Positions 2,993 through 15,652 of a DNA stretch of 17,882 nt are shown piece by piece (position 1 is the first letter of the stretch; every line of letters starts with the position of its first letter). Made by a program: the position numbers and the translations under genes. The stretch is from a bacterium (GTDB lineage: Bacteria > JAHJDO01). The DNA is taken from positions 1 to 17,882 of the forward strand of contig JAUWOV010000036.1 of the NCBI GenBank assembly GCA_030611945.1, read 5' to 3'. Under the pieces are notes generated by a model, which worked only from the letters and a program-made list of their open reading frames with translations, was not told where the DNA came from and searched no databases.

Positions 2993-3982
2993 CTACTTTT
3001 CAACTATAGTCTCTTCAATCTTCATTCCAAAATGCCTGCCTGATTTCTCTGTGTGCCCAAGCACTTCATCTCCTGGCTTCAAGCTGACGACAGAAACTGG
3101 TTTTCCTTGCGGAGTTACTAATCTTATTGTTTCTGCATTTTGCAGGACAAGTGATACTTTCTGTTTGCTACAGGTTCCTTCCACAAGAAGCATAGGCCTT
3201 TTCTCAATCTTTATTCTACCAACAATTACATCCTGCGTTTTTCCTTCCCAGTTTACAATCAGCGCCTTATCCCCTGCTTTAAGATCCGAAAGATACCGTG
3301 TTTTTCCCTCTGTAACCATCACATATGCATGCACTCCCCCTGCATTTACACGAAAAGGTCTCTGGTCAACATATGGATTTTCTACTGATTCCGAATGCAA
3401 GAGAAACATGCCTGAGCTCGTATTGCCAACCAGCATTCCTTCTCCGATGATCATATTGGTGCATGTATCTATGCAAACCCTATCTCCAGTTCCTAATGGT
3501 TTTACAGACTTGATCTTTATTGTCTTGAGTGATATCAAATTTTTCTTTACTTTTAGCTGATTAATTACTTTTCTTAATTCAGCAGGTTTTTTTATATTCA
3601 GCAAAACGCCGTCTACTCCTTTTTCAAGAGTGTTCAGCGCCAACTCTGCTTCTTCTAAATTTCTTACCTCCGCTATCAAGCCTTTTGTTTGAGCAATAAG
3701 ATTTTCCATAGGAATAATCTTCCAGTCATGTGTCTTAATAACTATCCATTTATTATGTATTGCTGCCGCTCTGATTTCATCCTCTTTTCCCTTAATCTCT
3801 ATTTGCGCAACATCCTTGCCTATTCGCAGATCTCCGTCCTCAGAAACCGTTTGTATCTTTCCGAGTTCCTTTACCTTCCCGTTAAACCCATTATTAATAA
3901 CAACAAAATCCGCCCCGCATTCCAGAGCTGTAATAACAATCTCTTTATTCCACGGTCTCGCATCTACCCAAACTTGTTTCAT
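2993..3982 (-). CDS. 3-dehydroquinate synthase II (archaeal type)
   Basis: This enzyme (EC 1.4.1.24) performs NAD-dependent oxidative deamination and cyclisation of 2-amino-3,7-dideoxy-D-threo-hept-6-ulosonate to 3-dehydroquinate, feeding the shikimate pathway without DAHP synthase and AroB. The family hallmark is unmistakable: GMLVGNTSSGMFLLHSES followed by VENPYVDQRPFRVNAGG (residues 182-216), plus GTGDRVCIDTC at 164-174. At 329 residues its length is normal for the family. It follows the ADTH synthase gene by 11 bases with a good AAGGAA site, so the two catalysts of the same two-step route are made together. The enzyme is mostly archaeal; scattered bacteria carry it. Its 3' end lies only 8 bases from the stop of the convergent lipoprotein gene, with no obvious terminator between. 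Confidence 0.95.
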   Translation of the reverse strand: MKQVWVDARPWNKEIVITALECGADFVVINNGFNGKVKELGKIQTVSEDGDLRIGKDVAQIEIKGKEDEIRAAAIHNKWIVIKTHDWKIIPMENLIAQTKGLIAEVRNLEEAELALNTLEKGVDGVLLNIKKPAELRKVINQLKVKKNLISLKTIKIKSVKPLGTGDRVCIDTCTNMIIGEGMLVGNTSSGMFLLHSESVENPYVDQRPFRVNAGGVHAYVMVTEGKTRYLSDLKAGDKALIVNWEGKTQDVIVGRIKIEKRPMLLVEGTCSKQKVSLVLQNAETIRLVTPQGKPVSVVSLKPGDEVLGHTEKSGRHFGMKIEETIVEK

Positions 3983-3993
3983 TATTTATTTCC

Positions 3994-4791
3994 TTAATTT
4001 AAAATTCCTAACGCTTCCTCTACAGAGACATCTTCATGAACAATTTTGCATATTGCCTCAACCATCTTTTTTGGGCACTTATGCTGAAACGCATTTCTGC
4101 CGATAGAAACCCCTGCTCCGCCTGCTTCCAGTGAGTTTTTAACATTTTCAAGCACTTCGCTGTCATTAGACGCTTTTTCTCCACCTGCAATAACTACCGG
4201 TATCGGGCATCCTTCAACAACCTCAGAAAAAGTCTCCTTTGAACCTGTGTATGTAACCTTAACAATATCTGCTCCTAATTCTGCCGCAATCCTCGCTGCA
4301 TGTTTAACCCCTTCAACATCTGACTCGCTCTTGACCTTTTTCCCTCGCGCATACATCATTGCAATAAGAGGCATACCCCAGTTCATACATGCAACGCTGA
4401 CACTGCCAAGATCCCTCAGCATCTCTGCCTCGTTCTCAGCCCCAATATTTATATGAACAGATACTCCATCAGCGCCCATTTTCAGAGCATTTTCAACTGT
4501 GTTCACCAGAACCTTTGCGTTCGGGTCAGGACTCCACACAGTACTGCCTGAAAGGTGTAGAATTAACCCTATATCCTTACCATGTCGTCTATGACCATGC
4601 TTGGGAAGACCAATATGTCCCAAAACTGCATTTGCGCCGCCTTCAGCAATGTCATTCACCATATCCCGCATATTCTCAATTCCCTTGATTGGTCCTACAG
4701 TTACACCATGATCCATTGGCACAATAACGGTTTTTCCACTGTTTCTATCAATTATCCTCTCTAAACGTATACTCTTTCCTAATCTGGACAT
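3994..4791 (-). CDS. 2-amino-3,7-dideoxy-D-threo-hept-6-ulosonate (ADTH) synthase, class I aldolase fold
   Basis: This is the first step of the archaeal aromatic route (EC 2.2.1.10): L-aspartate semialdehyde is joined to a three-carbon unit from 6-deoxy-5-ketofructose 1-phosphate. The 265-residue TIM barrel is of the DhnA/FbaB type. Asp27 (PMDHGV), Tyr147 (MMYARG) and Schiff-base Lys178 (DIVKVTYTG) match the catalytic Asp33, Tyr153 and Lys184 known for Methanocaldococcus MJ0400, with a constant offset of six. A class I fructose-bisphosphate aldolase is the alternative, but the adjacent 3-dehydroquinate synthase II decides the call. The start has AAGGAG 8 bases upstream, and the gene has its own near-consensus promoter. 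Confidence 0.92.
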
Positions 4792-6579: not shown

Positions 6580-7056
6580 TTATAACTGTTGTTGTATTTT
6601 TTTTATTATATCGGTTGTTGAATGATTTTTTCTATCCCCGGTTATTGCAATCTGCCCGCCATATGAAAGAACAATCTCTCGTTCTGGCACAGTCTCAACT
6701 GTATAATCTGTTCCTTTTGTATGTATTGCCGGTTTTATAATCCTTAACAAATTTTCTACAGTAGGGTCTGAAAAAGGTACTACATAATCCACGCATTCCA
6801 AAGCTGCTACAATCTCTATTCTATCTTCCTCCTGCATAATTGGTCTGCCCTGCCCTTTCAATTGCGATTCCGATTTATCATTATTAATCCCTACAATCAG
6901 TATATCGCCCAAAGACTTTGCTCCTTCAAGATATCTGATATGTCCAACATGAAGAACATCAAAACAGCCATTTGCAAAAATTATTTTTTTATTATCTTTT
7001 TTAAGTTTTTTTATCAGATTGGGAAGTTTGTCTAGGCTACAAATTTTCTTCATCAT
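6580..7056 (-). CDS. rfaE2: D-glycero-beta-D-manno-heptose 1-phosphate adenylyltransferase (stand-alone RfaE2/HldE-C type)
   Basis: The enzyme (EC 2.7.7.70) makes ADP-heptose precursor for lipopolysaccharide core or related glycans. The cytidylyltransferase-fold signature ANGCFDVLHVGHIRYLEGAK (residues 28-47, HxGH at 36-39) is followed by VGINNDKS, GRPIMQEEDRIEIVAAL, KGTDYTVETVPE and the terminal GDRKNHSTTDII block. At 158 residues this is the nucleotidyltransferase domain alone; the heptose kinase partner (RfaE1) is not in the window. MMKK gives two possible starts one codon apart. The ribosome binding site is weak (TCGG), and a TTCGGAAA repeat lies just upstream in the leader. It heads the operon with the kinase and miaA. 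Confidence 0.92.
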   Translation of the reverse strand: MMKKICSLDKLPNLIKKLKKDNKKIIFANGCFDVLHVGHIRYLEGAKSLGDILIVGINNDKSESQLKGQGRPIMQEEDRIEIVAALECVDYVVPFSDPTVENLLRIIKPAIHTKGTDYTVETVPEREIVLSYGGQIAITGDRKNHSTTDIIKKIQQQL

Positions 7057-7065
7057 ACACCGATT

Positions 7066-7165
7066 ATTTTCCGAACCATCATTGATAATGTTTTGAACAT
7101 AACTTGTTGCATTCTAAACAGTTTTGAAGTTTTATATTTCCGAACCTTTCCCTATGATTCGGAAA
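7066..7165 (-). promoter_or_regulatory. Leader with three TTCCGAA/TTCGGAA motifs
   Basis: In the mRNA of the rfaE2 operon, UUUCCGAA (7165-7158) is followed by UUCGGAAA at 7144-7137 and again at 7073-7066, the last just before the rfaE2 start. The first can form a hairpin with either of the two later copies. As DNA, 7137-7165 is an inverted repeat with a 13-base centre that overlaps the predicted transcription start, like an operator. GGTTCGGAAA is an exact direct repeat in the two later copies. Whether it works as DNA or RNA is not decided by the sequence. Confidence 0.5.
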
Positions 7166-7166
7166 T

Positions 7167-7195
7167 AGTATACAGAACCGAGGCAACCATATCAA
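7167..7195 (-). promoter_or_regulatory. Promoter of the rfaE2-kinase-miaA operon
   Basis: Minus strand -35 TTGATA (7195-7190), 17-base spacer, -10 TATACT (7172-7167): each hexamer has five of six consensus bases. The predicted start is near 7160, which gives a leader of about 104 bases before the rfaE2 ATG at 7056. Confidence 0.75.
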
Positions 7196-7276: not shown

Positions 7277-8188
7277 TTACCCATTTCGTAGGCAAAACTC
7301 AACTAAGTCTTCAATGGCTGTCTGTGCCAGACACATTCTTGTATCTGCGCCGCCATAATAAATATTTAATTTACCATCAGTGGTTTCAACTGCACCTGCA
7401 GTAAAAACAACGTTCGGAACTTGACCGATACATTCATAATTTTTTTCAGCGGCTAGAATGAATTTTTCAGGAGCTTTTAGAACAATTGAAGGATCTTTAA
7501 GATCAAGAAGCATTGCTCCAAGATAATAATTTTCAGTGGATGCTGTATGGCAAGTGGCATGGTAAATCTCCAGCCAACCCTTGTTTGTTTTAATCGGAAT
7601 AGCCCCTGCGCCATTTTTGCGTCCACCCCATCCTAAGACAGGAATTTTTAATGGTTTTGCATTTCCCCAGTAGATAAGATCAGGGGAATAATTAATCCAC
7701 ATACTGCCGGATCCATTAATACTTTGCGGGCGATCGATTCTGACATAAAGTCCATTGATTTTCTCAGGAAACAGCACACTGTTCCTGTTAGACGGCATTG
7801 AAATCGAACCAACCGGCTCAAAATTAATAAAATCATCAGTTTTTGCCATTGCGGAACAGCAGCCAAACTTCATCCATGATGCATGACAAACATAATATGT
7901 TCCATCAAGCCGTGTGATTCGCATATCAAAACGGTGTCCTCCCCACTCTTTCTCCAACTCGGCAAGAGGATAGTTAATAGGATCGGGATTAACCTCAAAA
8001 TTTACTCCATCCTCACTTAAGGCTGTATGAAAATAAGTCTTACGATCATATTTTTCTACTCTTAAAAGCATTAAAAAACGACCGTTAAAATATGTCGCTC
8101 CGGCATTGAAAACCGAATATGTTTCAAACGGCATATCTTCAGGACTGATAATCGGATTCTTCTCATGTCTAATTAGCGGTGATTTCAT
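7277..8188 (-). CDS. GH130 family protein (beta-mannoside phosphorylase-like)
   Basis: GH130 enzymes cleave beta-mannosides with phosphate to release mannose 1-phosphate; a few members are hydrolases. Family features seen: HEKNPIISP at the N-terminus (8-16), VFNAGA at 26-31, RFDMRITRLDGTYYVCHAS at 86-104 with Asp88 where the catalytic Asp of the EDPR-like motif is expected, and a C-terminal YYGGADTRMCLA at 277-288. At 303 residues it is a typical single five-bladed propeller, with no signal peptide, so cytoplasmic. The motif change from the more usual E-D-P-R to F-D-M-R may mark an uncharacterised subgroup, so the linkage cleaved is uncertain. It has an AAGGGGAT ribosome site and may have its own promoter upstream. 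Confidence 0.85.
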   Translation of the reverse strand: MKSPLIRHEKNPIISPEDMPFETYSVFNAGATYFNGRFLMLLRVEKYDRKTYFHTALSEDGVNFEVNPDPINYPLAELEKEWGGHRFDMRITRLDGTYYVCHASWMKFGCCSAMAKTDDFINFEPVGSISMPSNRNSVLFPEKINGLYVRIDRPQSINGSGSMWINYSPDLIYWGNAKPLKIPVLGWGGRKNGAGAIPIKTNKGWLEIYHATCHTASTENYYLGAMLLDLKDPSIVLKAPEKFILAAEKNYECIGQVPNVVFTAGAVETTDGKLNIYYGGADTRMCLAQTAIEDLVEFCLRNG

Positions 8189-8522: not shown

Positions 8523-9422
8523 CTAATTATGATTATTCTTTATAAGCTTTTCTAAATATCTTTTCCCCTCTACATAAGCAGTATTTGGATCATCTACGAT
8601 ATTAACTTCTATATCTAAAGCCTCTTCATAACCGACTTCATTGAAAGCACGCAATGCCTTATCCCATTCGATTTTCCCCTTTGGAGGCATCCAATGGTCA
8701 TCTACGCATCCATCGTTATCGCAAATATGAGTTCCAAAAATCCGTTTTCCTAATTTATATACAGCTACATGCACGGGTTCCTTCTGAACAAAAATATGGC
8801 CTGTATCCAGTATAAAACCAAGATTAGGATTATTATCAAGGCAAGAAAGAAGACGCAAAAAACTATCAGTTGTACAAATCACACCATAAGGAACCGCCTC
8901 AATTGCAAGCTTCATACCCGCATCCTGTACAATTTTTAAACATTGACTGGTGGTATCCACATAAGTGTCCCACGCCCTCTCCCAATTCACTCCTGAAGGA
9001 GAGTCAATAACAGGTTGAATAGCTCCAGGATATGTCTCGTAATAATCAGAGATTAATTCAGTAGACGGGGCGGCAGGAATATTAAAAACCTCGACAATCC
9101 CAAGCTTTTGGCAAATTTCAACCAGTTTTTTCAATTCTTCCAGCCCCTGATTAATTCGTTTTTTGTCTAAACTAGAAATATCTGTCTTCGCGGAATGAGC
9201 AATAAACTGGCTGCTTTCCATTTCTAAGTTCTCGTAGTGATCGTGAATTCAAGAGATGTTTTCATTAGTATAGATTTCTATTTGTTCTTTTGAATATGTC
9301 TCCAACTGGAAGCCGCAAAATCCCATATCTTTTCCCATCGAAACAAGCTGAAGTATTCTTTTAAGTGTTATATGCTCACCAAAATGAGCAAAACCAAAGG
9401 CTGGACTAAGCCCGATTTGCAT
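8523..9422 (-). pseudogene. Xylose isomerase-like (AP endonuclease 2 family) sugar isomerase/epimerase, interrupted by in-frame TGA
   Basis: The full frame starts at an ATG at 9422 with an AGGGGGA ribosome site, reads MQIGLSPAFGFAHFGEH for a normal TIM-barrel opening, then meets TGA at codon 58 (9251-9249). The same frame continues with IHDHYENLEMESSQFIAHSA to a TAG at 8523. There is no frameshift: both parts are in register and together make about 299 residues, a normal length. Metal-site residues all lie after the stop: Glu175 (AIEAVP), Asp206 and His209 (ILDTGH), His232 and Glu272 (LDIEV), in full-length numbering. A start at 9221 (232 residues) would lose the first two barrel strands and has no good ribosome site. 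CGA (Arg) to TGA is the likely lesion. Alternatives are a sequencing error or recoding. Intact relatives convert aldose and ketose sugars or epimerise them. Confidence 0.75.
9249..9251 (-). other. In-frame TGA codon in the isomerase gene
   Basis: This is codon 58 of the full-length frame; the flanking codons read ENIS-stop-IHDHYEN. Other genes in the window end in TGA, so TGA is not generally a sense codon here. Confidence 0.85.
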
Positions 9423-9436
9423 TTTTCCCCCTTTAT

Positions 9437-10459
9437 TTAGTTTGTATGCGAAACTTCTACCAAAATATCTATGTTTTCAGGGGGAGTATTCTCATTCATT
9501 CCTCCTCCTGCAGAAAGCATAAATCCTTTCCCATTTTTACTTGAGGCAATACATTCTCTTGCTGCCAGTTTAACTTTATCATGATCGCCTGATTGCATTA
9601 CTTTAACCGGGCATAAATTCCCCAAGATACAGCAGTGACCACCTATTTGCAACAGTGCCTGTGCTAAATCCGTTGTTGGGCCTATATTGAAAACATCTAT
9701 TCCCGTCTGCCCAATTAATTCTATGACATGGTCGGATTTAGTATCACAATGAAAGACCATGATATGATCTTTAAAATATTCCCTTATCCTGCAATGATAA
9801 GGGAAAAGAAATTTCTTATATATATCCGGCGATATAAGACCTGAAATATCATCAGTTAACAAAATACCCTCTGCTTCCGACAGCACATCTTTTTGTGCCT
9901 CCAACCAGATAATTATACTTTGAGTAGCTTTCTCCAGTAATGCATTAGCCAAATTGGGTTTTAAATATAAATTAACCAAAAAATTATTTAGTCCCCAGAG
10001 ATGAGAAGCTAACTCGCCAGGCCCATTACTGTGAAGAAAATGAAGATTGTCAGTAAATTCTCTTCTTTCTCTAAACGTCTTTAACGTTTTCAGATACCAT
10101 GGCATTAACCCGTCTTCTTTTGGATTAGGAATATTTAATGTTTCAATGTCCTTGTCTTTTTTAATAACGTACTGCTTTACCTGAGGCATAGTATCTCTTT
10201 GCCAAGAAATAACACCACCAAAACTACCAAATAATCCTGCCCCATAATCAGGCCAGCAACCTGGAATAAACAATACCTCAGGAAACCTTTTAAATGCCTG
10301 TAATTCAACTTCTATTAGTTTCTCAGGATTGTACAAGCACTCAAAGAGCTCCACGCCAGCCAAAGAGGCAAAAAAACGAGGTGTGCCTAATAGAGCCACC
10401 GGAACAGAATCGATCTCTTTATGTTTTACTGAATTTAGGAAACGTTCCCAGGCATTCAT
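9437..10459 (-). CDS. Uroporphyrinogen decarboxylase / MtaA-like family protein
   Basis: This is a 340-residue TIM barrel of the UroD superfamily. It lacks the paired N-terminal arginines expected of true heme-pathway UroD and instead resembles the methyltransferase-like branch (MtaA, CmuA and many uncharacterised members). Candidate zinc ligands are His237 and Cys238 in MVFHCDTKSD and Cys283 in LGNLCPVKV; GFMLSAGGGMNENTPPENI near the end is the typical last loop. Members of this branch are often found in sugar-degradation clusters of PVC-type bacteria with AP2-type isomerases, and the reaction is unknown there. Methyl-group removal is one idea, but no corrinoid protein is visible in the window. 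It sits 14 bases upstream of the isomerase and 12 bases after the cupin. Confidence 0.8.
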   Translation of the reverse strand: MNAWERFLNSVKHKEIDSVPVALLGTPRFFASLAGVELFECLYNPEKLIEVELQAFKRFPEVLFIPGCWPDYGAGLFGSFGGVISWQRDTMPQVKQYVIKKDKDIETLNIPNPKEDGLMPWYLKTLKTFRERREFTDNLHFLHSNGPGELASHLWGLNNFLVNLYLKPNLANALLEKATQSIIIWLEAQKDVLSEAEGILLTDDISGLISPDIYKKFLFPYHCRIREYFKDHIMVFHCDTKSDHVIELIGQTGIDVFNIGPTTDLAQALLQIGGHCCILGNLCPVKVMQSGDHDKVKLAARECIASSKNGKGFMLSAGGGMNENTPPENIDILVEVSHTN

Positions 10460-10471
10460 ATTTCACCTACT

Positions 10472-10837
10472 TTATTTTCCGTTATCATAACTTCCTTGCA
10501 CCACAGACGGGCTGAAAACATAAAAAACTTTCAAATCTTTATCAGTTGTTGCTTCAAGAGAATGTTCAACCCCTTTTGGTACAAACATAAATGTCCCTCC
10601 CTTAATTCGTTCTGGTTTCCCCTCAAAATACATATTCCCCTCACCTTCAAGAACATATAATATCTCTTCTTCTTTTTCATGCACATGAGAAGGAGCATGA
10701 GCATTACCGGGAAAAACAGCCACTCCTGCGCACATATTTTTTGTTCCCATATTATCAGGTCTTACGACCATTTTGTGCTTACGTCCGGGGAGAGCTTTCG
10801 TTATAACTTTACTTTCGTGAATGGTAAATCTTTGCAT
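10472..10837 (-). CDS. Small cupin-domain protein
   Basis: A single cupin barrel of 121 residues. Motif 1 runs GNAHAPSHVHEKEEEILYVLEGEG (given in parts: PSHVH at 49-53, EEE at 56-58, LEG at 63-65), with metal-ligand candidates His51, His53 and Glu57 or Glu58. Motif 2 is FVPKGVEHS with His92. All four canonical metal ligands are therefore present, so it probably binds a metal and could be an isomerase or epimerase for sugars, or a sugar-binding regulator. It has an excellent AAGGAGTGA ribosome site and begins 4 bases after the transketolase C half ends, so it belongs to the same operon. The substrate is unknown; its place between the transketolase and UroD genes suggests action on a short-chain sugar product. 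Confidence 0.8.
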   Translation of the reverse strand: MQRFTIHESKVITKALPGRKHKMVVRPDNMGTKNMCAGVAVFPGNAHAPSHVHEKEEEILYVLEGEGNMYFEGKPERIKGGTFMFVPKGVEHSLEATTDKDLKVFYVFSPSVVQGSYDNGK

Positions 10838-10841
10838 AAAG

Positions 10842-11780
10842 TCACTCCTTTTTATTTAATAAACTTTTAGTTTGTTTGACAATATTTTCAACTGTTAATC
10901 CTGCTCGCTGCAGTAATGATTGATGACTTCCAGAGTCACTAAAGTAATCTGATACACCAAGTATTTTCATTGGCACAGGACATTTTTGAGAAACAACCTC
11001 AGCTATTGCGCTTCCAAGACCTCCATAAATATTATGTTCTTCAACTGTCATTACAGCGCCACATTTTTTAGCCATGGAAATTACTGCTTTCTCAGGAATA
11101 GGTTTTACTGAAATAATATCATGAACAGTAACTGATATGCCCTCTTTTTCAAGTAAATCTGCTGCTACAACAGCCATATGAGATGTAAAACCATTACTGA
11201 AAATAACTATATCATTCCCATCCTTAAGCCGATTCCCGCTTAAGACATCCACCTCAGAAGCTTTAGAATAAATAACAGGTTCATTATCACGAAGCACACG
11301 TATATAAACAGGCCCTTTGTGTTGAGCCGCCCATAAAACACATGCTTTACAAGAGGTAGCATCTGAAGGAGCTAATATTGTCATATTTGGAAGACCTCGC
11401 ATAGTATTAATGTCGGCAATGCATTGATGAGTGGGACCATTTTCCCCAGTACAAAGCCCCCCATACGGTGCGCCAATTTTTACGTTCATATTGCCGATAC
11501 AGATAGATGTTCTTATTTGTTCGCAGGGGCGCATACTTGCAAAAACCGCTAATGTTGTAGCAAACGGAATCTTACCGCAGCTAGCAAGTCCTGCAGCAAA
11601 ACTCATCATATTCTGTTCTGCTATTCCCATATTGAAAAAACGGTCGGGAAATTTCTCGGCAAATAAAGATGTCTTAGTTGCCTTGGACAGATCACAGTCA
11701 AGGACAACCACATTCTTATTTTTTTGCCCAATCTCTACAAGCGATTCACCATAAGCGCTTCGCATAGAAGCTGTCTGCAT
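10842..11780 (-). CDS. Transketolase C-terminal half, second pair (divergent active site)
   Basis: This 312-residue protein is the pyrimidine-binding and C-terminal part of a split ThDP enzyme; it should act with the N half encoded just upstream (35-base overlap). The catalytic Glu55 is in MGIAEQN. The substrate region differs from ordinary transketolases: where E. coli TktA has His461 and Asp469 in THDSIGLGEDGPTHQ, this protein reads APYGGLCTGENGPTHQ, giving Tyr106 and Asn114. His118 and Arg164 (equivalent to His473 and Arg520) remain. Those swaps should change recognition of the phosphate and of the C2 hydroxyl. The start at 11780 has AAAGGATATGGAA upstream; a Met six codons later has none. 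DXS-like activity is less likely because of the pairing and length. Confidence 0.88.
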   Translation of the reverse strand: MQTASMRSAYGESLVEIGQKNKNVVVLDCDLSKATKTSLFAEKFPDRFFNMGIAEQNMMSFAAGLASCGKIPFATTLAVFASMRPCEQIRTSICIGNMNVKIGAPYGGLCTGENGPTHQCIADINTMRGLPNMTILAPSDATSCKACVLWAAQHKGPVYIRVLRDNEPVIYSKASEVDVLSGNRLKDGNDIVIFSNGFTSHMAVVAADLLEKEGISVTVHDIISVKPIPEKAVISMAKKCGAVMTVEEHNIYGGLGSAIAEVVSQKCPVPMKILGVSDYFSDSGSHQSLLQRAGLTVENIVKQTKSLLNKKE

Positions 11781-12600
11781 TTTCCATATCCTTTTTCATT
11801 TGTTTACATTTCTCAGCCAGTTTATCTCTATCCATCAAACTATGCCACAGATAATCATTCTCCATAAAACTCACACCCTTGCCTTTAATGGTATTAGCTA
11901 TGATTACAGTCGGAACTTCTTTAGTATTTCTTGCTTTTTCAAAAGCGGGAAGGATCTCATTTATATTATGTCCATCAATCTCAATAACATTCCAATTGAA
12001 ACCTTTCCACCTTTTAACCATTGAACCGGGTGAAAGAACCTCATCAACGCTGCCGTCAAATTGAAGGCGATTATAATCAACAATAGCTAACAAATTATCA
12101 AGTTTAAAATGTGAAGCGCACATTACAGATTCCCAGACCTGTCCTTCGTTCATCTCCCCACAGCCCAGCATTACATATGTCCTGTAGAATTTTCTATCAA
12201 TTTTAGCAGCCACTGCCATACCTGCTCCAACAGATAATCCCTGTCCTAAACATCCGCTTGTCATGTCTATACCCGAGGTATGAATTTCAGGATGACCTTG
12301 AAGAAAGCTTCCTGCTTTGCGCAGTGTTTTTAATTTCTTAACGGGAAACACTCCCCGCCGCGCTAGTGCCGCATATAACACAGGACAGGCATGACCTTTA
12401 GAGAGAATAAACCTATCCCGATCCGGCCAATCAGGTTCCTCCGGACGAATGTTCATCTCTTTAAAATATAGACAGGTTATTATATCCGCGGCAGATAAAC
12501 AGCCTCCTGGATGACCTGAACCGGCATTAGATATCATTCGCACAACATCATAACGCAAAAGCTGCGCCCATCGTTCCAATTCTTTTGTTTTATCTATCAT
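11746..12600 (-). CDS. Transketolase N-terminal half, second pair, with GCG in place of GDG
   Basis: This 284-residue ThDP-diphosphate-binding half has SGHPGG (His30), LSKGHACPVLY (His70), QGHPE (His103) and MENDYLWHS (His253), all matching transketolase active-site histidines. The metal motif GDG reads LGCGEMNEG here: Cys147 takes the place of the Mg-binding Asp, while Glu152 and Asn177 (DYNRLQFDG) remain. It begins in a 4-base ATGA overlap with the stop of the previous C half, and its own 3' end overlaps the next C half by 35 bases, so the four transketolase genes are tightly coupled. It is clearly a paralogue of the N half at 13559-14395, roughly half the residues matching by eye. Confidence 0.9.
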   Translation of the reverse strand: MIDKTKELERWAQLLRYDVVRMISNAGSGHPGGCLSAADIITCLYFKEMNIRPEEPDWPDRDRFILSKGHACPVLYAALARRGVFPVKKLKTLRKAGSFLQGHPEIHTSGIDMTSGCLGQGLSVGAGMAVAAKIDRKFYRTYVMLGCGEMNEGQVWESVMCASHFKLDNLLAIVDYNRLQFDGSVDEVLSPGSMVKRWKGFNWNVIEIDGHNINEILPAFEKARNTKEVPTVIIANTIKGKGVSFMENDYLWHSLMDRDKLAEKCKQMKKDMENADSFYAKRLW

Positions 12601-13556
12601 CTTTTCTTCTTTTTTCTGCCTACTACTTTAAAACAGCCAGAGATAATATCATCTACAGACATTTTGTATTTTTTGAGAAGTAATTCATACTCTCCTGATT
12701 CAGCAAATGTATTTCGAAGTCCGATTCTCTGAATTGGAATAGGATAGTTTTCACCTAGAAATTCCGAAACAGCGCTTCCAAGTCCACATTCAACCTGATG
12801 GTCTTCAACTGTAACTACTCCTCCTGTTTTTCTTACAGAATCAAGAATAATAGACTCATCTAAAGGTTTAATTGTATGCATATCAATGACTTCCGCCAAA
12901 ATTCCCTGTTTTGAAAGAATATCCCTAGCATCCAAAGCCTTTGAAACCATATCTCCAATGGCAATTATAGTAATATCCTTTCCTTCGCGTAAAAGTATCC
13001 CTTTCCCTATTTTAAAGCTTGTTTCTTCATTATAGATTACAGGAACCCCATCTCTTGTAAGACGTAAATAAATAGGTCCATCCCATTGTGTTGCTGCAAT
13101 AACCAATTCCCTTGTTGAGACTGCATCAGCAGGCATAATAACAGTCATTCCAGGGATTGTTCTCATTATGCCGAGATCCTCGGTTGCCTGATGAGTAACC
13201 CCATCGTTTGCTGGGGTAATTCCTCCATGGCTTACACATATCTTTACATTCACATGTGGATAAGCCACAAAAGTGCGCACTTGTTCACATGCCCGCATAC
13301 TTGCAAAAACTGCATAGGTAGAAACAAATACAATTTTCCCACAGGATGCTGCGCCTGCAGCTATCGCCATCTCATTTTGTTCCGCAACTCCAATATTAAA
13401 ATAACGTTCAGGAAATTCTTTACCAAATATTGCGCTTCGGGTGCTTTTGCCAATATCTGCTTCAAAAACAACAATTTGATCATTCTTCCGCCCAAGTTCC
13501 ACCAAAGTATCTCCATAAGCATTACGCGTTGGAATAGAATCGCCTAATTTATACAT
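12597..13556 (-). CDS. Transketolase C-terminal half, first pair
   Basis: This 319-residue partner of the N half begins 2 bases before it in the map (2-base gap). It opens GDSIPTRNAYGDTL, has the catalytic Glu59 in GVAEQNE, and keeps the standard substrate residues: VSHGGITPANDGVTHQ has His110, Asp118 and His122, matching His461, Asp469 and His473 of E. coli TktA, and Arg168 in LTRDGVPVIY matches Arg520. So this half looks like an ordinary transketolase acting on phosphorylated sugars. The C-terminus ends in a run of basic residues (GRKKKKR) produced by an A/G-rich stretch, which also supplies the ribosome site for the next gene. Confidence 0.92.
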   Translation of the reverse strand: MYKLGDSIPTRNAYGDTLVELGRKNDQIVVFEADIGKSTRSAIFGKEFPERYFNIGVAEQNEMAIAAGAASCGKIVFVSTYAVFASMRACEQVRTFVAYPHVNVKICVSHGGITPANDGVTHQATEDLGIMRTIPGMTVIMPADAVSTRELVIAATQWDGPIYLRLTRDGVPVIYNEETSFKIGKGILLREGKDITIIAIGDMVSKALDARDILSKQGILAEVIDMHTIKPLDESIILDSVRKTGGVVTVEDHQVECGLGSAVSEFLGENYPIPIQRIGLRNTFAESGEYELLLKKYKMSVDDIISGCFKVVGRKKKKR

Positions 13557-13558
13557 AG

Positions 13559-14395
13559 TTATGAACCTCTAATCTCTTCAAGCGCAATTTTAAGCTGTTC
13601 ATCATCAGGAGCAAGTCCATGCCAATCAACCTTATTTTCCATAAAACTTACTCCCTTTCCTTTTATTGTATCTGCAACAATTACTGTAGGTTTATTATGT
13701 GTTTCACGCGCTTTTGCAAATGCTTTAATAATTTGATTAAAGTCATGACCATTAGTTCTTATTACATTCCAGTTAAATGCCTCCAATTTATCTACGATGG
13801 GTTCAAGTGGCATTACTTCGTCATTATCTCCATCAAGCTGAAGTTTGTTATAGTCAATAATTACGACCAAATTGTCCAGCTTAAACTTGGTCCCTGCCAT
13901 GAACGCTTCCCACACTATACCTTCATCTAATTCCCCGCAACCCAGCATTACATATACACGAAAATCCTTTTTATCCAATTTACCCATAAGCGCCATGCCA
14001 ATACCTATAGACAAACCGTTTCCAAGTGAACCTGTAGTAAAATCCACTCCCGGAGTTTTTTTCATATCAGGATGTCCTTGAAGCCGACTGTTTATTTTTC
14101 GGAGAGTTGCAAGCTCTTCAATTGGGAAAAATCCTTTCATGGCCAGAACGGAATAGAGGACAGGGCAGGCATGCCCTTTTGAAAGAATAAACCTGTCTCT
14201 GTCGGGATCTCTTTGGTTATCCAGATTAATGCGCATTTCATGACAATAAAGCGTCGTAATTATTTCCGCTGCTGACAATGCGCCTCCAGGGTGTCCTGAC
14301 TGTGCAGCATGAATCATCTTGAGAATATTTATCCTCAACTCTGTTGCTTTCTCTTCTAAAAAACTTACTAAATTTTTATTGATTGTATCAACCAT
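13559..14395 (-). CDS. Transketolase N-terminal half, first pair, with GCG in place of GDG
   Basis: This 278-residue split transketolase N half has SGHPGG (His35), LSKGHACPVLY (His75), QGHPD (His108), GSLGNGLSIGIGMAL and KGKGVSFMEN with His259 close behind. The ThDP metal motif is again LGCGELDEG, with Cys153 for the usual Asp, Glu158 retained and Asn183 (DYNKLQLDG) retained. It is probably the first transketolase gene of the operon, 27 bases after the fucosidase stop, with only a weak AGAAG site before ATG. With the C half at 12597 it should form an alpha2beta2 enzyme transferring two-carbon units. Confidence 0.92.
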   Translation of the reverse strand: MVDTINKNLVSFLEEKATELRINILKMIHAAQSGHPGGALSAAEIITTLYCHEMRINLDNQRDPDRDRFILSKGHACPVLYSVLAMKGFFPIEELATLRKINSRLQGHPDMKKTPGVDFTTGSLGNGLSIGIGMALMGKLDKKDFRVYVMLGCGELDEGIVWEAFMAGTKFKLDNLVVIIDYNKLQLDGDNDEVMPLEPIVDKLEAFNWNVIRTNGHDFNQIIKAFAKARETHNKPTVIVADTIKGKGVSFMENKVDWHGLAPDDEQLKIALEEIRGS

Positions 14396-14422
14396 TTAAA
14401 TTCTTCTATATTGCCTGCAACT

Positions 14423-15652
14423 TCATACCAATCTTAGCTTAATAACTGTATCGTAAGGGTCTATCTGTTTTTTAGGTAAGTCTTTAAGAAATAAACGCTC
14501 ACCATTCTGAACAACGGAAACTTTCTCGCCCGTGGCCAAGAGATGAGCTGATTTTATCTTTCTCTTAACCGGTGCAATACATATTTCTTTCCCAGGACAT
14601 CTAAAAACATGGAGATAAACTGTATTTCCCTTAGCAGTAGTTAGCCCGACCATTCCTCCCCTAAATGGAGCACTCCTACATCCATAAATAGACTCACTAT
14701 TCACTTTCATCCATTTTCCAATCTCTTTAAGCCTTTTTACCGAAGGCACAGGTATTGTTCCATCCTGTTTCGGTCCAATATTAAGCAGAAAATTCCCACT
14801 ACTACTTACACAGCGAACCAAGTCCTGAATAAGCTGTCTTGTGGATTTCCAGTTACTATCTGCCTTTGAATATCCCCAGTTATCATTCATCGTCACACAA
14901 GATTCCCATGGTCTATCTGGAGCACGAATTTCCGGAGCAGCTGTTGGAATATATTGTTCTGGAGTAGCAAAATCTTCAGGTAACTTGGAACGGTCATTAA
15001 TTAAAACCTGCGGCTGTAACTTTCTAACCATTTTGTTTAGTTTTTTGGACTGCCAGGCTTCTTGCAAAGTAAAATTATCCCATGCTCCTGGCCTATCAGG
15101 TGGAGGGAGTGGTGCACCGTCATACCACAAAACATCAATTTTTCCATAATTTGACATAAGTTCCTTTACCTGACTATGAACATACTCAACAAGTTTTTTC
15201 CATTCCTTCGGATTCTTCATTGGTCCGTTAAAGAAAGCAGGATATCTCCAGTCACGAAGGGAATAATAGATGCCGATTTTTATCTTGGCTTGCCTGCAGG
15301 CTTCAACAAATTCAGCGACAAAGTCCCTTTTTGAACCGGTTTTCACAGAAGTAAAATCAGATACATTACTATCAAAGAGGGAGAAGCCATCGTGGTGCAT
15401 TGCAGTAAACACAATGTATTTCATTCCAGCTTCTTTTGCCAGGGAACACCATTCATTGACATTAAATTTTCTTGGGCTAAATTTTTTAGCCAATAAGGCA
15501 TACTCCTCCTTTGGAATCTTCTCAAGATCCATTACCCATTCACCCCTGGCGAGGATTGAATAAAGCCCCCAATGAATAAACATCCCAAATCTTGCCTCTC
15601 CAAACCATTTTACCCTTTTCGTTTTCTCTGCTTTCTTCAAATTATTCTCCAT
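14423..15652 (-). CDS. GH29 alpha-L-fucosidase, cytoplasmic
   Basis: This retaining glycosidase is expected to release alpha-L-fucose (EC 3.2.1.51) or a closely related sugar. The family entrance WFGEARFGMFIHWGLYS (residues 16-32), KYIVFTAMHHDGFSLFDS (78-95, His86 and His87), LRDWRYP and the nucleophile Asp178 in DVLWYDGAPL are all present, as is MNDNWGY and NFLLNIGPKQDG further on. At 409 residues it is the catalytic barrel plus a short C-terminal beta domain. There is no signal peptide, so the substrate must be imported first. The start overlaps the stop of the large hydrolase-like gene by 11 bases. Substrate cannot be fixed further; GH29 members also act on methylated or other deoxy sugars. 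Confidence 0.93.
   Translation of the reverse strand: MENNLKKAEKTKRVKWFGEARFGMFIHWGLYSILARGEWVMDLEKIPKEEYALLAKKFSPRKFNVNEWCSLAKEAGMKYIVFTAMHHDGFSLFDSNVSDFTSVKTGSKRDFVAEFVEACRQAKIKIGIYYSLRDWRYPAFFNGPMKNPKEWKKLVEYVHSQVKELMSNYGKIDVLWYDGAPLPPPDRPGAWDNFTLQEAWQSKKLNKMVRKLQPQVLINDRSKLPEDFATPEQYIPTAAPEIRAPDRPWESCVTMNDNWGYSKADSNWKSTRQLIQDLVRCVSSSGNFLLNIGPKQDGTIPVPSVKRLKEIGKWMKVNSESIYGCRSAPFRGGMVGLTTAKGNTVYLHVFRCPGKEICIAPVKRKIKSAHLLATGEKVSVVQNGERLFLKDLPKKQIDPYDTVIKLRLV

Follow-up and report, generated by a model that had tools for sequence, protein, structure and literature searches.

The window analysed here, a 17,882-nucleotide stretch of a draft bacterial genome, contains a sugar isomerase gene whose reading frame is interrupted at codon 58 by an in-frame TGA. 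The most probable explanation, and the one we favor, is that this dispensable, acquired gene carries a single recent nonsense change. The frame is otherwise intact, the gene lies within an island of sugar-catabolism genes and the draft genome contains no genes for selenocysteine insertion. That the stop is real in cells and the enzyme's function lost is what we infer from these observations. The features on which the argument draws are as follows.

8523..9422, minus strand: xylose-isomerase-like TIM-barrel gene (sugar isomerase/epimerase) with its frame interrupted; 299 codons, then TAG
9252..9422, minus strand: N-terminal piece of 57 codons, expected to supply the barrel's first strand/helix and its second strand (strands placed from homologues)
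9249..9251, minus strand: in-frame TGA, codon 58, placed by alignment in a variable helix column
8523..9221, minus strand: internal ORF of 232 codons, starting at the first ATG past the TGA (codon 68), with all four metal ligands inside
9437..10459, minus strand: intact upstream neighbour, URO-D/MtaA-like methyltransferase family
10472..15652, minus strand: cupin, two split transketolase pairs and alpha-L-fucosidase, all intact, upstream
7277..8188, minus strand: intact GH130 (mannoside phosphorylase family) gene, downstream
7021..7174, no strand assigned: 154-bp stretch at the island edge, 88% identical to C58:5039-5192, which lies beside rfaE1 on that other contig

Translation of the minus strand across 8523-9422 gives 57 codons, the TGA (9251..9249), 241 open codons and a terminal TAG. 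The initial annotation described a frame and protein homology continuing on both sides of the TGA, and translation, codon usage and homologue alignments all bear this out. Codon-usage scores are coding-like on both sides (0.15 for the N-terminal part and 0.20 for the C-terminal part, where genes of the window score 0.12–0.27), and the other frames of the same stretch score about 0 or below. The start and ribosome site are likewise intact, with a AAAGGGGG stretch just upstream of the isomerase ATG. The 241 codons past the TGA contain no second lesion, and 103 of the 2169 single changes in this segment would create a stop. The gene is present in a single copy in the genome.

The read-through product, with X at the stop, matches Pfam AP_endonuc_2 (PF01261) over residues 31–292 (3.7e-29; 102.6 bits, cut-off 31.1). 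The part beyond the stop retains this match when searched alone (3.6e-28), and the 57 residues before it give no match to the profile by themselves. Distant homologues, drawn from plasmids and two other genomes, align across the TGA junction; in one example from the Rhizobiaceae, GFELTAWSVDMLGYYTDETIRELR lies opposite GFQLETYSKEQIEIYTNENIS*IHD of the window. The catalytic residues were said to lie beyond the stop, and the metal ligands Glu175, Asp206, His232 and Glu272 are indeed all downstream of it. They are the counterparts of Glu152/Asp185/His211/Glu246 in the L-ribulose 3-epimerase of Methylomonas (PMC8167858). The barrel match, above the curated cut-off, and the Glu-Asp-His-Glu ligand set together place the protein in PF01261, the sugar phosphate isomerase/epimerase superfamily that includes D-tagatose/L-ribulose 3-epimerase, IolI and fructoselysine 3-epimerase. 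It shares no more than 28% full-length identity with anything found, scores well under all NCBIfam equivalog cut-offs (leaving its substrate unassigned) and carries the TGA interruption. No close homologue usable for dN/dS was found in 385 sampled genomes or in plasmids. One match from the search of genome contigs was dismissed as a chance-level hit to a long unrelated frame, and a structure prediction for the read-through protein, made without an alignment, was set aside (mean pLDDT 33.6).

A premature stop that truncates a conserved domain ahead of its active site is one mark of a nonsense pseudogene and is present here, and the isomerase resembles nonsense-interrupted bacterial pseudogenes in having one in-frame stop, an otherwise intact frame and coding signal, and a dispensable, species-variable setting. 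It looks like an ordinary, recently broken gene. It differs from checked nonsense pseudogenes in being known from the sequence of one assembly, where an error may have produced the stop. Such an error in the consensus or assembly, or a minority strain allele carried into a metagenome consensus, would leave the isomerase intact in living cells; this is the main rival to a real mutation, a serious contender although clearly the less likely of the two. It predicts the same sequence, and the otherwise perfect frame fits it equally well as it fits a recent mutation. The draft, moreover, is fragmented (1.66 Mb, ~91% complete and with 3% contamination, in 119 contigs, of which C69 carries the window). 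Against an error, every one of the window's remaining 16 main ORFs is open and nothing else in it looks damaged, and relatives match both sides of the contig edge, giving no indication of a gross chimera.

The initial annotation had offered three options: fresh inactivation, assembly error, and readthrough or selenocysteine recoding. The first two together hold nearly all of the probability. Insertion of selenocysteine at codon 58 has the identity of the codon as its sole point in favor, and we regard it as having a negligible chance of being correct. The draft contains no selA; no selB scores above the cut-off, the scoring proteins being EF-Tu and related GTPases only; and no tRNA-Sec is found above the cut-off, those sub-threshold candidates that ARAGORN could name being common tRNAs such as Trp, Leu, Ser and Gly. 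The suggestion of a stem-loop just past the TGA also fails, as no SECIS element is present there: the RNA folds no better than its shuffles (z +0.64), and the window gave no Rfam hits. A third sign of recoding would be Cys or Sec at the corresponding position in homologues. Column 58 is not conserved and holds K/E/A/S/Q/G/R/D/Y/I, never Cys, among the aligned homologues. All three hallmarks of a selenoprotein gene (the Sec genes, a SECIS element and a Cys/Sec column) are thus absent, and recoding is contradicted as far as a draft that is 91% complete allows.

Readthrough of the TGA by other means depends on how this genome decodes UGA. As previously noted, TGA serves as a stop elsewhere in the window, terminating 7 of the 17 main ORFs; across ~509 kb of the genome it terminates 67 of 255 long ORFs (26%). 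Release factor 2 is present with a score well above the cut-off (503.7 bits). Among the tRNAs read, none has the anticodon UCA, and a weak hit at C8:3673-3732 was not called by ARAGORN. Genomes in which UGA has been recoded as Trp are recognized by a tRNA-Trp(UCA), loss of RF2, rare terminal TGA and many in-frame TGA codons, and none of these is seen here. Genome-wide reassignment was rejected on these grounds and because no other gene in the ~509 kb is split by TGA.

A subtler form of UGA decoding would be allowed by the genome's tRNA-Trp(CCA), of which a single copy was found (C103:1627-1699; L085:1501-1574). A G27.A43 mismatch reduces its anticodon stem to 4 bp; A9 and G24 are retained and the loop has 7 nt. 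In these features, and in being the sole copy found, it resembles the 4-bp anticodon-stem tRNA-Trp(CCA) described previously (PMC13092985), although nothing in the window's genome points to UGA reassignment; sequence analysis and publication place it in the same class. These Blastocrithidia-like tRNAs account for ~2% of bacterial tRNA-Trp, and when overexpressed in E. coli the 4-bp form raises UGA readthrough ~2.5-fold (PMC13092985). Leaky decoding of the isomerase UGA as Trp by this tRNA, yielding some full-length enzyme, is therefore conceivable, and the form of the tRNA would permit it at a low level. We nevertheless consider it improbable: ~6.5% of standard-code bacterial genomes also have only a 4-bp form (PMC13092985), RF2 is present and a quarter or so of long ORFs end in TGA, no other TGA-split gene appears in the ~31% of the genome surveyed, and Trp is absent from column 58 of the homologues. 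The readthrough option of the initial annotation finds no positive evidence at the site itself, and the unusual tRNA leaves room for weak leakiness rather than a programmed event.

The survey of split genes covered that same ~509 kb with a filter for same-frame neighbours with coding signal, which detects nonsense splits and not frameshifts. Stops with same-frame coding signal on both sides comprised 27 TAA, 11 TAG and 4 TGA. Apart from the isomerase, the TGA cases are borders of separate genes (TyrRS/MFS, MarR/GT4 and CDP-alcohol phosphatidyltransferase/TrpE). A TPR gene on contig C78 (L124:6183-6950) is split mid-repeat by an in-frame TAA (6707-6705; GAAQYKKGD*EKALGSFTKAL). Because this gene is split in the same manner by TAA, the isomerase lesion is not TGA-specific. 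The presence in this assembly of at least one further clean nonsense split, with a different stop codon, is as expected for scattered mutations or for scattered consensus errors, and not for UGA decoding. The split TPR gene lies just upstream of an apparent BatD-type gene. Elsewhere, contig C92 carries two broken UDP-sugar dehydrogenase copies near each other (L138:1118-1754 and 2402-2818), with an apparent toxin-antitoxin pair of small genes between them.

The interrupted gene might also encode a two-piece enzyme, in which translation terminates at codon 58 and reinitiates at the codon 68 ATG, with the two products, of 57 and 232 aa, joining to form a single barrel. That ATG, ten codons past the TGA, does open 232 codons containing all of the metal ligands. 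No recognizable ribosome site precedes it, however, none of the homologues found is split at the same place and codons 59–67, between the stop and the ATG, still align to homologues. We judge this arrangement more improbable still than leaky decoding of the UGA.

The genomic setting of the isomerase is consistent with a recent nonsense change being tolerated. The comparison drew on four further members of the genus, and these were the phylum's only other representatives in it. The isomerase gene and its operon are absent from all four, the URO-D-like neighbour has only distant relatives in them and a core gene of the window is 91–95% identical in three of the four. Two relatives have rfaE1 immediately after rfaE2. 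In the window's genome, rfaE2 lies at 6580-7056 and rfaE1 on contig C58, each adjoining the same 154-bp stretch (88% identity). The DNA between them is devoted to sugar catabolism: on the window side, fucosidase, split transketolases, cupin, the URO-D-like gene, the broken isomerase and GH130; on the C58 side, a LacI-type regulator, a cupin and further genes, named from sequence alone. These comparisons point to an island found only in the window's species among the five genus genomes, with a size of at least ~16 kb if both contig ends belong to one insertion. A grossly chimeric contig was rejected as an explanation of this boundary, as C58 matches the island edge on the other side and relatives match both sides.

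Several other features of this region were observed. The 154-bp edge stretch, at 7021-7174 and on C58 (L066:5039-5192), includes an apparent duplicate of the initial bases of rfaE2. The two transketolase pairs (10842-14395) are consecutive members of one operon, each with its N and C halves encoded by separate genes, and share a short stretch ~72% alike at the DNA level. This bacterium also carries shikimate entry genes of archaeal type at 2993-4791 (3-dehydroquinate synthase II and ADH synthase); these are also found in the genus relatives.

If the stop is a genuine nonsense mutation, translation of the isomerase would start normally and halt after 57 codons, and the product would be a fragment lacking any metal ligand, so that the sequenced strain would not make the isomerase. 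Its gene is part of an island for sugar use, one that differs from species to species within the genus, and there the loss of a single enzyme would be tolerated; a species-specific island of this kind is a likely home for a tolerated null allele.

In annotation, the isomerase is best flagged as interrupted, and the draft genome's sugar pathway is to be treated as possibly incomplete. A broader implication attaches to the very unlikely case, marginally less so than the two-piece enzyme, that an otherwise standard-code bacterium reads the isomerase UGA at a low level through its 4-bp-stem tRNA-Trp, with the leaky stop still passing a trickle of a catabolic enzyme. Were such readthrough shown at native tRNA levels, it would answer a question left open by the study of 4-bp-stem tRNA-Trp (PMC13092985).
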